34,106 nt of DNA from Planifilum fulgidum (GTDB taxonomy: Bacteria > Bacillota > Bacilli > Thermoactinomycetales > DSM-44946): the NCBI RefSeq assembly GCF_900113175.1, contig NZ_FOOK01000033.1, positions 1 through 34,106 of the forward strand, given 5' to 3'. Position numbers and translations under genes: made by a program. The notes under the pieces were generated by a model, which was not told where the DNA came from, did not search any database, and saw nothing but the letters and a program-made list of their open reading frames with translations. How positions within the stretch are numbered: position 1 is the stretch's first letter; each line of letters begins with the position of its first letter. Positions 27,573-30,703 of the stretch are shown one piece after another.

Positions 27573-28319
27573 ATGTCCGGATCCGGGATGACACTCCAGC
27601 ACGATTTAAAATTTTATCCGTCGGACAAGCCGTTGGCGGAGAACGACTATCGGCGGGAGAAAGAACGGATTTTGCGGAAGGTTTCATCGGACCCGAACCC
27701 AGACCACTATCTGGAGCTGGCTCAGCTGGAGTACCGCAGGGGATTGTACGAGGAATCCAAGAAAGCGGTGGAGAAAGCGCTTCAGGAACGTCCGGACTTC
27801 CCGGAGGGCGAGCTTTTCTTGTCGAAAATCCTGGAGAAGATGGACAGGGAAGCAGAAGCGGAACAAGCCTTTCTCAAGCTGATGGAACGGCATCCCTCCT
27901 ACAGTTGCGCATACCGGGAATACGCCCGGTTTCTGCTGGAGAAAAAAGAGCAGACCCACCGCGCGGAATGCCTTTTGCTGCGCGGATTGGAGCTGAATCC
28001 GCAGGACGGTCTCGCCCATGCGCTTCTGGCTGAAATTTATGCGCAAACCGGCCGCGAAAGGCAGGCCGTGCTCCACCTGCGCATCGCTTCCCGCCGTGAC
28101 GGAGACACCTATTTGCACCAGAGCTGCGGCAAGGTATTTTTTCAGATGGGGAAATACAGCGAGGCGGCGGAGCAGTTCCGCCTCGCCTTGATGGCCGATC
28201 CCCGAAACAAGACGGCGAGAAGCCAATTGAAGCTGGTTTTGAAATTGCAAAGAAAAGGAATTCTTTCTTTGGCAAAAATTCCATGGCTGAGAAGAAGCAA
28301 TCCGGCGGGAGAAAGGTAA
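27573..28319 (+). CDS. TPR-repeat protein
   Basis: A 248-residue protein from ATG 27573, 6 nt behind GAGGGGG. After a polar N-terminus of about 40 residues, five or so tetratricopeptide-type helix pairs follow, with features such as HYLELAQLEYRRGLYEESKK, then GLAHALLAEIYAQTGRERQA and GKVFFQMGKYSEAAEQFRLA. TPR proteins act as scaffolds for protein partners. No signal peptide or membrane helix; the C-terminus is basic (LKLQRKGILSLAKIPWLRRS). No partner can be named from context. Confidence 0.85.
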   Translation: MSGSGMTLQHDLKFYPSDKPLAENDYRREKERILRKVSSDPNPDHYLELAQLEYRRGLYEESKKAVEKALQERPDFPEGELFLSKILEKMDREAEAEQAFLKLMERHPSYSCAYREYARFLLEKKEQTHRAECLLLRGLELNPQDGLAHALLAEIYAQTGRERQAVLHLRIASRRDGDTYLHQSCGKVFFQMGKYSEAAEQFRLALMADPRNKTARSQLKLVLKLQRKGILSLAKIPWLRRSNPAGER

Positions 28320-28355
28320 AATCGCAATCCTTTTGAAAAAAACATCAGGCAAACA

Positions 28356-28384
28356 TCGACAAATTTCGTTCTTTGTGCTATGAT
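28356..28384 (+). promoter_or_regulatory. Strong sigma-A promoter with extended -10
   Basis: TCGACA (28356-28361), exactly 17 bp, then TATGAT (28379-28384), preceded by TGC as an extended -10. Matches are 5/6 and 5/6. Predicted start is G28391. No protein-coding gene begins close by; the first product is the small RNA at 28391-28492. Confidence 0.75.
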
Positions 28385-28390
28385 ATTCGT

Positions 28391-28492
28391 GTAGGCGGGT
28401 TGATCTCCTCGCTTACTACCACGCTTCTAAACTCCTTAATCTTGACCCTCTTTCACTTGGACCAGGGCGGCTTATCCTGGTCTTTTGTTTTT
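28391..28492 (+). ncRNA. Predicted CU-rich small RNA
   Basis: About 102 nt between the promoter at 28356-28384 and a strong terminator. The 5' end (28391-28399) pairs with 28408-28416 over 9 bp, allowing G-U pairs, around a UUGAUCUC loop. A 43-nt single-stranded part follows (28417-28459), rich in C and U, with ACUCCUUA and ACCCUCUUUC. The terminator stem is GACCAGG (28460-28466) with CCTGGTC (28476-28482), then TTTTGTTTTT. CUCCU is complementary to the Shine-Dalgarno core, as in Firmicute regulatory RNAs such as FsrA and RoxS, though I see no close likeness to those. No convincing reading frame with a ribosome site is present. Alternatively it is an attenuating leader of nagA 156 nt downstream. 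Confidence 0.6.
28460..28492 (+). terminator. Terminator of the small RNA
   Basis: 7-bp stem GACCAGG/CCTGGTC with a 9-nt loop followed by TTTTGTTTTT. Confidence 0.85.
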
Positions 28493-28570
28493 ATACCACC
28501 TTTTCTGTAACAAATAACCCCTTTCAACCATTTTGTTTTTTAAAAATATTGCCCCCGCACGACTCCTTCA

Positions 28571-28636
28571 TTGACGTTCCCGTCAAACCTTCAGTAATCT
28601 GAAAGAGAGGAAACCCTCACCATGAGGTTGGAAGGG
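28571..28636 (+). other. Three small hairpins in the nagA leader
   Basis: TTGACG-ttcc-CGTCAA (28571-28586), TTCAG-taat-CTGAA (28590-28603) and CCTC-accat-GAGG (near 28615-28627) lie in a row before nagA. The last is close to the ribosome site (AGGGGGAG). They may modulate translation, but each is short. Confidence 0.3.
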
Positions 28637-28647
28637 GGAGAACTGGG

Positions 28648-29826
28648 ATGGGGGACAACGACTATTTCGTGCTGCGGGGATCCGTCGTCCTGGCCGACGG
28701 GATTCTGGAAGAGGGGATGGTGGTGATTCGGGGGGAACGGATCGCATATGTGGGACCGCCGCTGTCCCGATTCACGGATCCCCGGAGGGAGTTTTCCGTC
28801 TCCGGTTATATTTGGCCCGGACTGATCGATCTTCATGTGCACGGAGCCGGGGGAGCGGACGTGATGGACGCCACTCCGAAATCCCTGGCGACGATTTCCC
28901 GGACGCTGGTTCGACACGGCGTGACCGGATTTTTGGCGACGACGGTGACCATGCCGAAACATCGGCTTGAGCAGGTATTCCATACCGTGGCGGAGGTGGC
29001 CTCTTCCCTGGAGGGAGCCCGGGTGCTGGGAATCCACCTGGAGGGCCCCTGGATTTGTCCTCGCCATCGGGGAGCGCAAAATCCCGAATACATCGTCGAT
29101 CCCGATCCGGAGGAGGCGATGTGGGCGCTGAAAAATTCCAGGGGAATGCTGCGCGTCGTAACGATGGCTCCCGAACGCCCGAAGGGATTGGAGACGGTCC
29201 GCCTCCTCTCGTCCAAGGGGGTGATCGTTTCCATCGGCCATACCGGGGCCACCTACGAACAGGCCCTGTCGGCGATTGACGCGGGCGCCTCCCAGGTGAC
29301 CCACTGCTTCAACGGGATGACCGGCCTGCACCATCGGAGCCCGGGGGTGGCCGGAGCCGCGCTGACGGAAGATCGCCTCTACGCGGAGCTGATCGCCGAC
29401 GGGTTCCACGTCCACCCGGCGGTGATCAAACTTTTGGCCACATTGAAGGGAGACAGCGACAAACTGATTCTCATTTCCGACGGCATCCGGGCCGTCGGAA
29501 TGCCGGACGGGGAATACGAATTGGGCGGCCTGCCGGTGTTTGCCCGGGAGGGGAAGGTGGTTCTGGCCGACGGCAGCCTCGCCGGCAGCCTGCTCACCCT
29601 GGACCGGGCTGTGCGGAACATGGTGGAATTCACCGGCATGCCGCTTTGGAAGGCGGTACGGATGGCTTCCCTCGTCCCTGCCCGCCGCTTGGGATTGGAC
29701 GGGGATCTGGGCAGCCTGGAGACGGGAAAACGCGCCGACCTCGTGGTGACGGACGAATCGTGCCATGTGTTGAAGGTGTGGATCCGCGGAAAGTGCGTCT
29801 ATGACCGGGAAACCTCCTACGATTGA
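28648..29826 (+). CDS. nagA: N-acetylglucosamine-6-phosphate deacetylase
   Basis: A 392-residue amidohydrolase, ATG 28648 behind AGGGGGAG. It removes acetate from GlcNAc-6-P in amino sugar catabolism and cell wall recycling. Metal/substrate motifs in order: GLIDLHVHG, HLEGPW, SIGHTGATYEQA, THCFNGMTGLHHR and ISDGIRAVG, then SLLTLDRAVRNMVEFTG. No nagB or regulator is beside it, so it stands alone rather than in a nag operon. The first 330 bases before it are taken by the small RNA and a hairpin-rich leader. Confidence 0.95.
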   Translation: MGDNDYFVLRGSVVLADGILEEGMVVIRGERIAYVGPPLSRFTDPRREFSVSGYIWPGLIDLHVHGAGGADVMDATPKSLATISRTLVRHGVTGFLATTVTMPKHRLEQVFHTVAEVASSLEGARVLGIHLEGPWICPRHRGAQNPEYIVDPDPEEAMWALKNSRGMLRVVTMAPERPKGLETVRLLSSKGVIVSIGHTGATYEQALSAIDAGASQVTHCFNGMTGLHHRSPGVAGAALTEDRLYAELIADGFHVHPAVIKLLATLKGDSDKLILISDGIRAVGMPDGEYELGGLPVFAREGKVVLADGSLAGSLLTLDRAVRNMVEFTGMPLWKAVRMASLVPARRLGLDGDLGSLETGKRADLVVTDESCHVLKVWIRGKCVYDRETSYD

Positions 29827-30118: not shown

Positions 30119-30703
30119 TTGAGAGGTCGCTGTTGGACAAAAAAAGAGGATCAAATATTGGCGGAGACCGTTTTGCGCCACGTGCGCGAAGGAAGCACGC
30201 AGCTGGAAGCCTTTGAAGAAGTGGCGCGCAAATTGGGGAGAACACCCGGAGCGTGCGGATTCCGGTGGAACGCCGTGGTCCGGCGCAGGGAAGAAAAAAA
30301 TTTCCTCGAGGCGAAAAAGCAGCGGCTCGCCAAACATTTCAAAAATAGACGGACGGATACGGTCGATTCCCTCAAACATCTGATTCAGATGCTTCGTCGG
30401 CACGAAAAGGAGTTCCATGCCTTGGTGGATCACGTCAATCAATTGGGAAAGCAATTGGAAGAGAAGGAGAGGGAGTATGAACGGCTCGCCGAGGAGAATC
30501 GCCGGCTGACCGAACAGCTGGAAACGGTGGACCGGCTCAGGGAACTATTGACGGAGCGGTATTCCGAATTGTTCCAACTGCTCAGCAGTGTCCGTCCGGA
30601 CAAGGAACCCGACGGCGATGCCGTGGTGCACGCGATTTCCTCCGCCGCGGAATCTTCGGAAGGGAAGACGGATGCGGACACGGGGGAAAAAAATCGAACA
30701 TAA
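30119..30703 (+). CDS. RsfA-type sporulation regulator (Myb/SANT-like)
   Basis: A 194-residue protein from TTG 30119, 6 nt behind AAAGGGGGG. The N-terminal 60 residues are a Myb/SANT-like helix-turn-helix ([20 protein letters not shown], then [20 protein letters not shown] and GFRWNAVVR), the hallmark of the RsfA family of prespore regulators in Bacillus. Residues of about 85-155 form a long coiled coil ([20 protein letters not shown]). A TATAAC hexamer lies at 30075-30080, but the best -35 (TTGTCG, 15 bp away) is poorly spaced. In Bacillus, RsfA family genes are controlled by sigma-F; I could not prove such a promoter. It leads two small genes. Confidence 0.85.

Follow-up and report, generated by a model that had tools for sequence, protein, structure and literature searches.

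A single-copy small RNA of the Thermoactinomycetales with Spo0A-like promoter boxes and predicted ribosome-binding-site targets in one family

Introduction

In the Firmicutes, RoxS/RsaE and FsrA of Bacillus and Staphylococcus carry unpaired C/U-rich seeds that are directed at ribosome-binding sites, and FsrA and RoxS are under the control of Fur or ResD/Rex. The FsrA and RsaE seeds are also named in a description of the LhrC family of Listeria, whose members pair with the Shine–Dalgarno region of mRNA (PMC4132741). In Bacillus subtilis, RnaC/S1022 is described as acting on the sporulation-transition network at abrB (PMC4366234). Our literature search on small RNAs of the order Thermoactinomycetales returned no dedicated study among the matches listed.

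Here, we analyze a locus of Planifilum fulgidum (GCF_900113175.1; genome 3.38 Mb; label G000) on contig 33 (NZ_FOOK01000033.1), the whole 34,106 nt of which we call the window. Judging by their translations, transposase-like fragments lie on the minus strand at both contig ends (3–251 and 33787–34104) and may have caused the assembly break. An original prediction, made from the DNA alone, had placed a CU-rich small RNA (sRNA) in the window and likened its design to that of FsrA and RoxS.

The putative sRNA shares unpaired C/U-rich seeds with RoxS/RsaE and FsrA, to which it adds a long invariant linear core, and it has a putative Spo0A box where RoxS and FsrA answer to Fur or ResD/Rex. Kinship with these RNAs was not borne out: no Rfam 15 family reaches its gathering threshold anywhere in the window, and neither RoxS/RsaE nor FsrA is among the four matches obtained for 28300–28660 at E values up to 5. 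A match to Noro_CRE at 28606–28644 (E 0.002, below gathering) was dismissed as chance.

The likeness to LhrC, as far as it is described in PMC4132741, lies in the build of a short sRNA with a 5′ stem-loop, a single-stranded stretch, and a terminator. Compared with the motif layout given there, the RNA studied here has related motifs in the loop and the stretch, while its terminator loop is variable and carries no such motif. LhrC is present in five copies and our sRNA in one; sequence, promoter element, and targets all differ. RnaC/S1022 is reported to be SigD-controlled and present in 19 of 62 Bacillus genomes (PMC4366234), whereas the sRNA described here has putative Spo0A boxes and occurs, within its own order, in 41 of 42 genomes. 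Finally, where RnaC/S1022 acts on abrB, the longest complement of our sRNA at the abrB-like gene of P. fulgidum is 8 nt, and that gene was rejected as a target.

Results

Architecture of the locus

The near-consensus promoter with an extended −10 and the terminator that the original prediction had described as bounding a 102-nt RNA were recovered at the same positions, both in the sequence and in scans (Table 1). Its two hexamers are separated by a 17-nt spacer, TG precedes the −10, and 10 of 12 consensus bases match. Scanning both strands of 3.5 kb yielded 5 promoter-like sites where 1.2 were expected and 7 terminator-like sites where 5.0 were expected, the latter being close to expectation; neither scan is proof on its own. 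The terminator stem (28459–28483) has 9 pairs and a loop of 7, followed by a T-rich tail. When 28391–28492 was folded, the foreseen 5′ hairpin of 9 bp and unpaired CU-rich middle (28417–28458) appeared, together with the terminator hairpin. The energy of −25.4 kcal/mol (z −1.8) is modest, being equaled in 9 of 200 shuffles. CUCCU, ACUCCUUA, and ACCCUCUUUC, named earlier as complements of Shine–Dalgarno-type sequences, are all found in the RNA. The transcript is a prediction, as are its ends. With single-sequence statistics as modest as these, it is the comparison between genomes that is decisive for the existence of the putative sRNA gene.

Table 1. Predicted features of the sRNA locus (window coordinates)
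Feature	Position	Strand	Basis
Promoter	28356-28384	+	sequence scan
−35 hexamer TCGACA	28356-28361	+	scan; TCGACA-N17-TANNNT in 38/40 loci (TCGA-anchored search)
−10 hexamer TATGAT with extended TG	28379-28384	+	scan and column conservation
Conserved element ACATCGACAAATTTCG spanning the −35, candidate Spo0A site	28353-28368	+	column conservation, 40 loci
Small RNA, 102 nt	28391-28492	+	fold, homologue searches; ends inferred
5′ hairpin (arms 28391-28399/28408-28416)	28391-28416	+	fold and covariation
S1, seed-like UUGAUCUCCUC in loop and 3′ arm of 5′ hairpin	28400-28410	+	
S2, AACUCCUUA, CU-rich stretch in middle	28430-28438	+	
S3, 3′ seed CUUGACCCUCUUUC, complement of T1/T2 ribosome-binding sites	28441-28454	+	
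Intrinsic terminator	28459-28492	+	scan, fold, covariation

Conservation across the order

A DNA search with 28320–28500 and a covariance model (R1) run on all 42 genomes of the Thermoactinomycetales together detected the sRNA in 41. The covariance search once proposed as a check within the Thermoactinomycetaceae has thus ended in conservation across nearly the whole order. The model gave a single match per genome, apart from a second one in G039 at E 0.47. No match to the model was obtained in G038, a 2.5-Mb genome of the order. As a sporulation gene we searched for spoIIGA, which was matched in 41 of the 42 genomes. Of the SpoIIGA matches, the weakest (E 9e-61; all others ≤1.6e-80) belongs to G038, the one genome of the order in which no sRNA was detected.

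Outside the order, the same searches produced nothing convincing. When 299 genomes sampled from the class were run with stricter filters, at which weak matches are lost, 29 had a model match, 27 of them from the order (including P. fulgidum) and 2 others. These two, L101 (E 0.018, 27.6 bits) and L102 (E 0.083, 24.5 bits), were set aside as chance matches, the opposite strand of each being coding-like. The DNA search of 19 genomes outside the order reached a best E of just 0.009. Of the two model matches set aside, the L101 match spans what we take to be the ribosome-binding site of tilS. An exact scan with a 19-base pattern found 31 stretches. Twenty-two belong to the Thermoactinomycetales group (Laceyella, Thermoactinomyces, Kroppenstedtia, Melghirimyces, Marininema, Paludifilum, Hazenella, and others; three are metagenome-assembled genomes), and the remaining nine, from unrelated taxa, were rejected: their best score is 21.2 bits, against 35.5–121.7 for the 40 accepted loci, and their number is what chance would produce with a pattern of 19 bases. 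This distribution points to a single-copy gene ancestral to the order.

In an alignment of the 40 loci (39 distinct), 99.7% of cells are paired and both sides have changed in 9 of 17 base pairs, with covariation in both hairpins; the alignment was fitted to the covariance model and therefore favors covariation. Covarying cells number 20, compared with 2.8 ± 1.4 in shuffles, none of which reached 20 in 500 attempts. A spurious antisense match in L019 was left out of this alignment (A3). RNAalifold, applied to a first alignment (A1) in which the terminators were misaligned, found changes on both sides in only 2 of 13 pairs. The hairpins, whose lack of conservation would have spoken against the original prediction, are therefore conserved.

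Between the hairpins, the unpaired core of ~40 nt, GCUACCACGCUUCUU..AACUCCUUAAUCUUGACCCUCUUUCA, is almost invariant among 30 aligned loci; in g17 and f4 loci it diverges in its middle or 3′ part. Of the 40 loci, 35 could be matched, and their spacer between GCUUC and ACUCC measures 3, 5, 6, or 8 nt. Because these lengths vary, no reading frame is kept; a small protein encoded by the locus was rejected on this ground, in agreement with the earlier statement that no reading frame explains it. Nine loci from several genera (L020, L028, L029, L031–L033, and L037–L039) carry insertions of ~20–80 nt at one site separating the 5′ hairpin from the core, and some of these insertions appear capable of forming hairpins.

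Taken across genomes, the sequence evidence indicates that the window holds a real sRNA gene of a new family, which resembles the CU-rich ribosome-binding-site antagonists of the Firmicutes and lies outside those tested.

The promoter and its Spo0A-like boxes

The −35 hexamer sits within the conserved ATCGACAAAWTTCG, which resembles boxes found before spoIIGA and abrB. At the position of the consensus T of the −35, all 38 loci with the promoter pattern have C; the search was anchored on TCGA, so that these four columns are conserved by construction; promoter assignment in the two f2 loci is uncertain. An A-Y-R preceding the hexamer and an AAWTTCG following it are also strongly conserved. Read on the opposite strand, the promoter element is CGAAATTTGTCGAT, comprising two 0A-like boxes 10 bp apart, and its conserved form is CGAAWTTTGTCGAT, a near-consensus 0A box with a CGAA 10 bp off. 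The 0A box core is described as TGTCGAA, contacted at G2, C4, and G5 (PMC3485338). The box at the sRNA promoter, TGTCGAT, retains G2, C4, and G5, with the second CGAA 10 bp off, and is not a perfect TGTCGAA.

Similar boxes were found at two other genes. Of 29 readable loci (L131 was unreadable), 23, including that of P. fulgidum, have TCGACRAA ~100 bp ahead of spoIIGA. A P. fulgidum gene that, from its sequence, we take to be abrB-like carries TGTCGAAATTTGACGG, which has CGAAATTTG in common with the sRNA element. This gene, on the minus strand of L451 at ~8260, has a perfect 0A box, TGTCGAA, 64 nt before its start. Counting both strands, 400 kb of the P. fulgidum genome contain 20 copies of TCGACAAA.

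Since sigma-A alone needs neither A-Y-R nor AAWTTCG, and 0A-like boxes also precede spoIIGA and abrB, we propose that Spo0A binds at the sRNA promoter. Direct control is likely on these grounds, and it could take the form of activation or repression, as 0A boxes are reported to mediate both (PMC12090719). The 17-bp spacer and near-consensus hexamers would lean toward repression by Spo0A~P. The −35 element could instead be the site of another regulator of a real antisense sRNA, with the imperfect palindrome CGAAATTTGTCG as operator, and the conserved element indeed exceeds one 0A box and is partly palindromic. We nonetheless consider this unlikely, at perhaps one chance among several: 9 of the 40 loci (L012, L014–L018, and L022–L024) have an additional TCGACA 11 bp upstream, which, like the 10-bp repeat of TGTCGAC in L034, fits tandem 0A boxes, and comparable boxes stand before spoIIGA and abrB.

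Pairing with ribosome-binding sites

The original prediction cast the CU-rich stretches as anti-Shine–Dalgarno elements. As a general principle this did not hold, since on ordinary ribosome-binding sites the native core scores like shuffled cores; general sequestration was accordingly given up as the main idea. Near start codons in the 42 genomes, matches to the seed-complement pattern numbered 64 (93 for the reversed pattern), to the S2 pattern 113 (140 reversed), and to the S1 pattern 304 (386 reversed). Neither the S2 hits read in 39 loci (28 sites plus 11 in sRNA genes; 9 with an ORF) nor the S1 hits read in 30 (30 sites, 16 with an ORF) revealed a cross-genus protein. Searches of the 42 genomes for 15-base targets with wobble gave 93 matches against 132 reversed, and a second long-target wobble search 31 against 23, sRNA genes being included among the matches of both; long wobble targets were discarded for lack of excess above reversed patterns. 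Duplex energy discriminated weakly, with misplaced windows in L300, L303, and L304. In contig 22 of P. fulgidum and contig 26 of G002, the S3 region has a near-match, with a separate ribosome-binding site following it. Target prediction over the ribosome-binding sites of P. fulgidum itself, covering 429 gene starts (~13% of the genome), found 9 complements of at least 8 nt compared with ~15 for shuffled cores, and none of these starts stands out.

The 3′ seed gave a different result in one family of the order, f3. When hits of the seed-complement search near start codons were read, two proteins recurred, T1 and T2, which were thus first spotted by that pattern. T1 is a membrane-like protein of ~137 residues found by protein search in 10 of 10 f3 genomes; it matches nothing in Pfam or NCBIfam. 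In the six T1 loci read, it lies downstream of menaquinone genes (NCBIfam confirmed menE at L299 and L308 and menC at L303; the remainder by likeness). T2, a membrane-like peptide of ~60 residues, was found in 9 of 10 f3 genomes; of its 6 loci read, 3 have a DUF420-like gene close by, which Pfam identified at L309 only. Neither T1 nor T2 turned up in the P. fulgidum genome by protein search, and nothing convincing was found outside f3, where T2 has three f6 matches at E 0.02–0.04. Both families, T1 (L299–L308) and T2 (L309–L317), are uncharacterised and share an unusual ribosome-binding site.

This site is AAAGAGGGT in 18 of the 19 orthologs and AACGAGGGT in the remaining one; AAAGAGGGU, the complement of the 3′ seed, serves T1 and T2 as ribosome-binding site. 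The longest Watson–Crick run between the f3 core and the T1/T2 sites averages 11.5 (range 7–15). It averages 5.7 (maximum 8) for 121 control ribosome-binding sites of f3 loci, which were placed by start codon, while the target windows were placed by motif; windows bearing AAAGAGGGT had been removed from the controls (4 of 125, all T1 genes). On the target windows, 200 shuffled cores gave 6.0 ± 0.6 (maximum 9.1). Runs were similar in the 12 of 19 orthologs that came from protein search alone (T1: 7, 10, 12, 12, 9, 9; T2: 11, 11, 11, 11, 10, 11). Over the ten genomes of f3, a broader seed pattern gave 88 matches and its reverse 35; over the other 32 genomes the numbers were 131 and 130, overlapping matches being counted repeatedly. 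Among the broader-pattern hits fetched, mostly from f3, no protein besides T1 and T2 was shared between genera, apart from a 21-residue match at E 7e-4; these hits were compared by BLAST and those of the seed-complement search by eye.

Conserved pairing with unlinked mRNAs was thus found in f3 only, and the target evidence is confined to that family, where T1 and T2 are well supported as predicted targets. Of the anti-Shine–Dalgarno idea, what stands is the complementarity of the 3′ seed to these conserved sites.

The almost invariant single-stranded core might alternatively be bound by a protein, as in a titrating or scaffold RNA, with mRNA complementarity secondary. About 40 nt are conserved, including CUACCACGC, which is not of Shine–Dalgarno type, and this is more than one or two targets within a single family would require; S1 and S2, moreover, have no recurrent target, and none stands out in the P. 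fulgidum sample. This explanation is improbable in our judgment, because the complement of S3 is conserved precisely at the ribosome-binding sites of two unrelated gene families.

Gene neighborhood

At each of the 17 named loci that were read, an ORF on the same strand occupies the position of the window's TPR gene and ends 121–202 bases before the core; among these upstream ORFs, Pfam identified TPR in the window only. Farther upstream, 10 of the 17 loci have a DUF3907-like gene with variable adjacency (by Pfam in the window, by likeness elsewhere). The gene 3′ of the sRNA varies, being nagA-like, presumably DUF309-like, or other, and in Kroppenstedtia it lies on the opposite strand. A Myb-like gene (30119–30703 in the window, where Pfam finds the Myb domain) follows in 13 of the 17 loci even though the intervening gene varies; to us it resembles RsfA.

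The conserved upstream gene and variable downstream gene imply a free-standing RNA, in support of the independent gene with its own promoter and terminator that was originally predicted. A role in cis instead, as leader or attenuator of whichever gene follows (here nagA) with the terminator as a regulated stop, fits the position of the RNA 5′ of nagA on the same strand and its strong terminator, but is highly improbable given that the RNA persists while the downstream gene changes between genera, leaving no conserved downstream gene at the 17 loci, and that the terminator stem itself covaries.

Discussion

A trans-acting sRNA is expected to show its own promoter and terminator, independence from its neighbors, and conserved secondary structure, and the locus displays all of these at the level of sequence. 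We think it probable that it encodes a trans-acting antisense sRNA of ~102 nt that is present in single copy and goes back to the ancestor of the order, with Spo0A-like boxes at its promoter and a seed that blocks the ribosome-binding sites of its targets. The RNA would be made from its own sigma-A type promoter, with the Spo0A-like boxes over the −35, and its level would probably shift when the cell commits to sporulation. The unpaired CU-rich part, chiefly the seed CUUGACCCUCUUUC, would then pair with AAAGAGGGU-type ribosome-binding sites of target mRNAs, so that ribosome loading is blocked and translation inhibited. Further targets may exist in other families, P. fulgidum included.

More tentatively, and as a possibility we would put below even odds, this core sRNA of the whole order may form a post-transcriptional arm of the sporulation switch. 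Spo0A would set its level directly, and its redundant seeds would control membrane genes tied to respiration, a tie suggested by the position of T1 beside menaquinone genes, along with lineage-specific targets.

The sRNA would constitute a defined family for the Thermoactinomycetales, and its promoter would allow the idea that Spo0A directly controls a small RNA to be examined. T1 and T2 are ready reporter targets, through which two uncharacterised membrane-protein families would gain a regulatory link.
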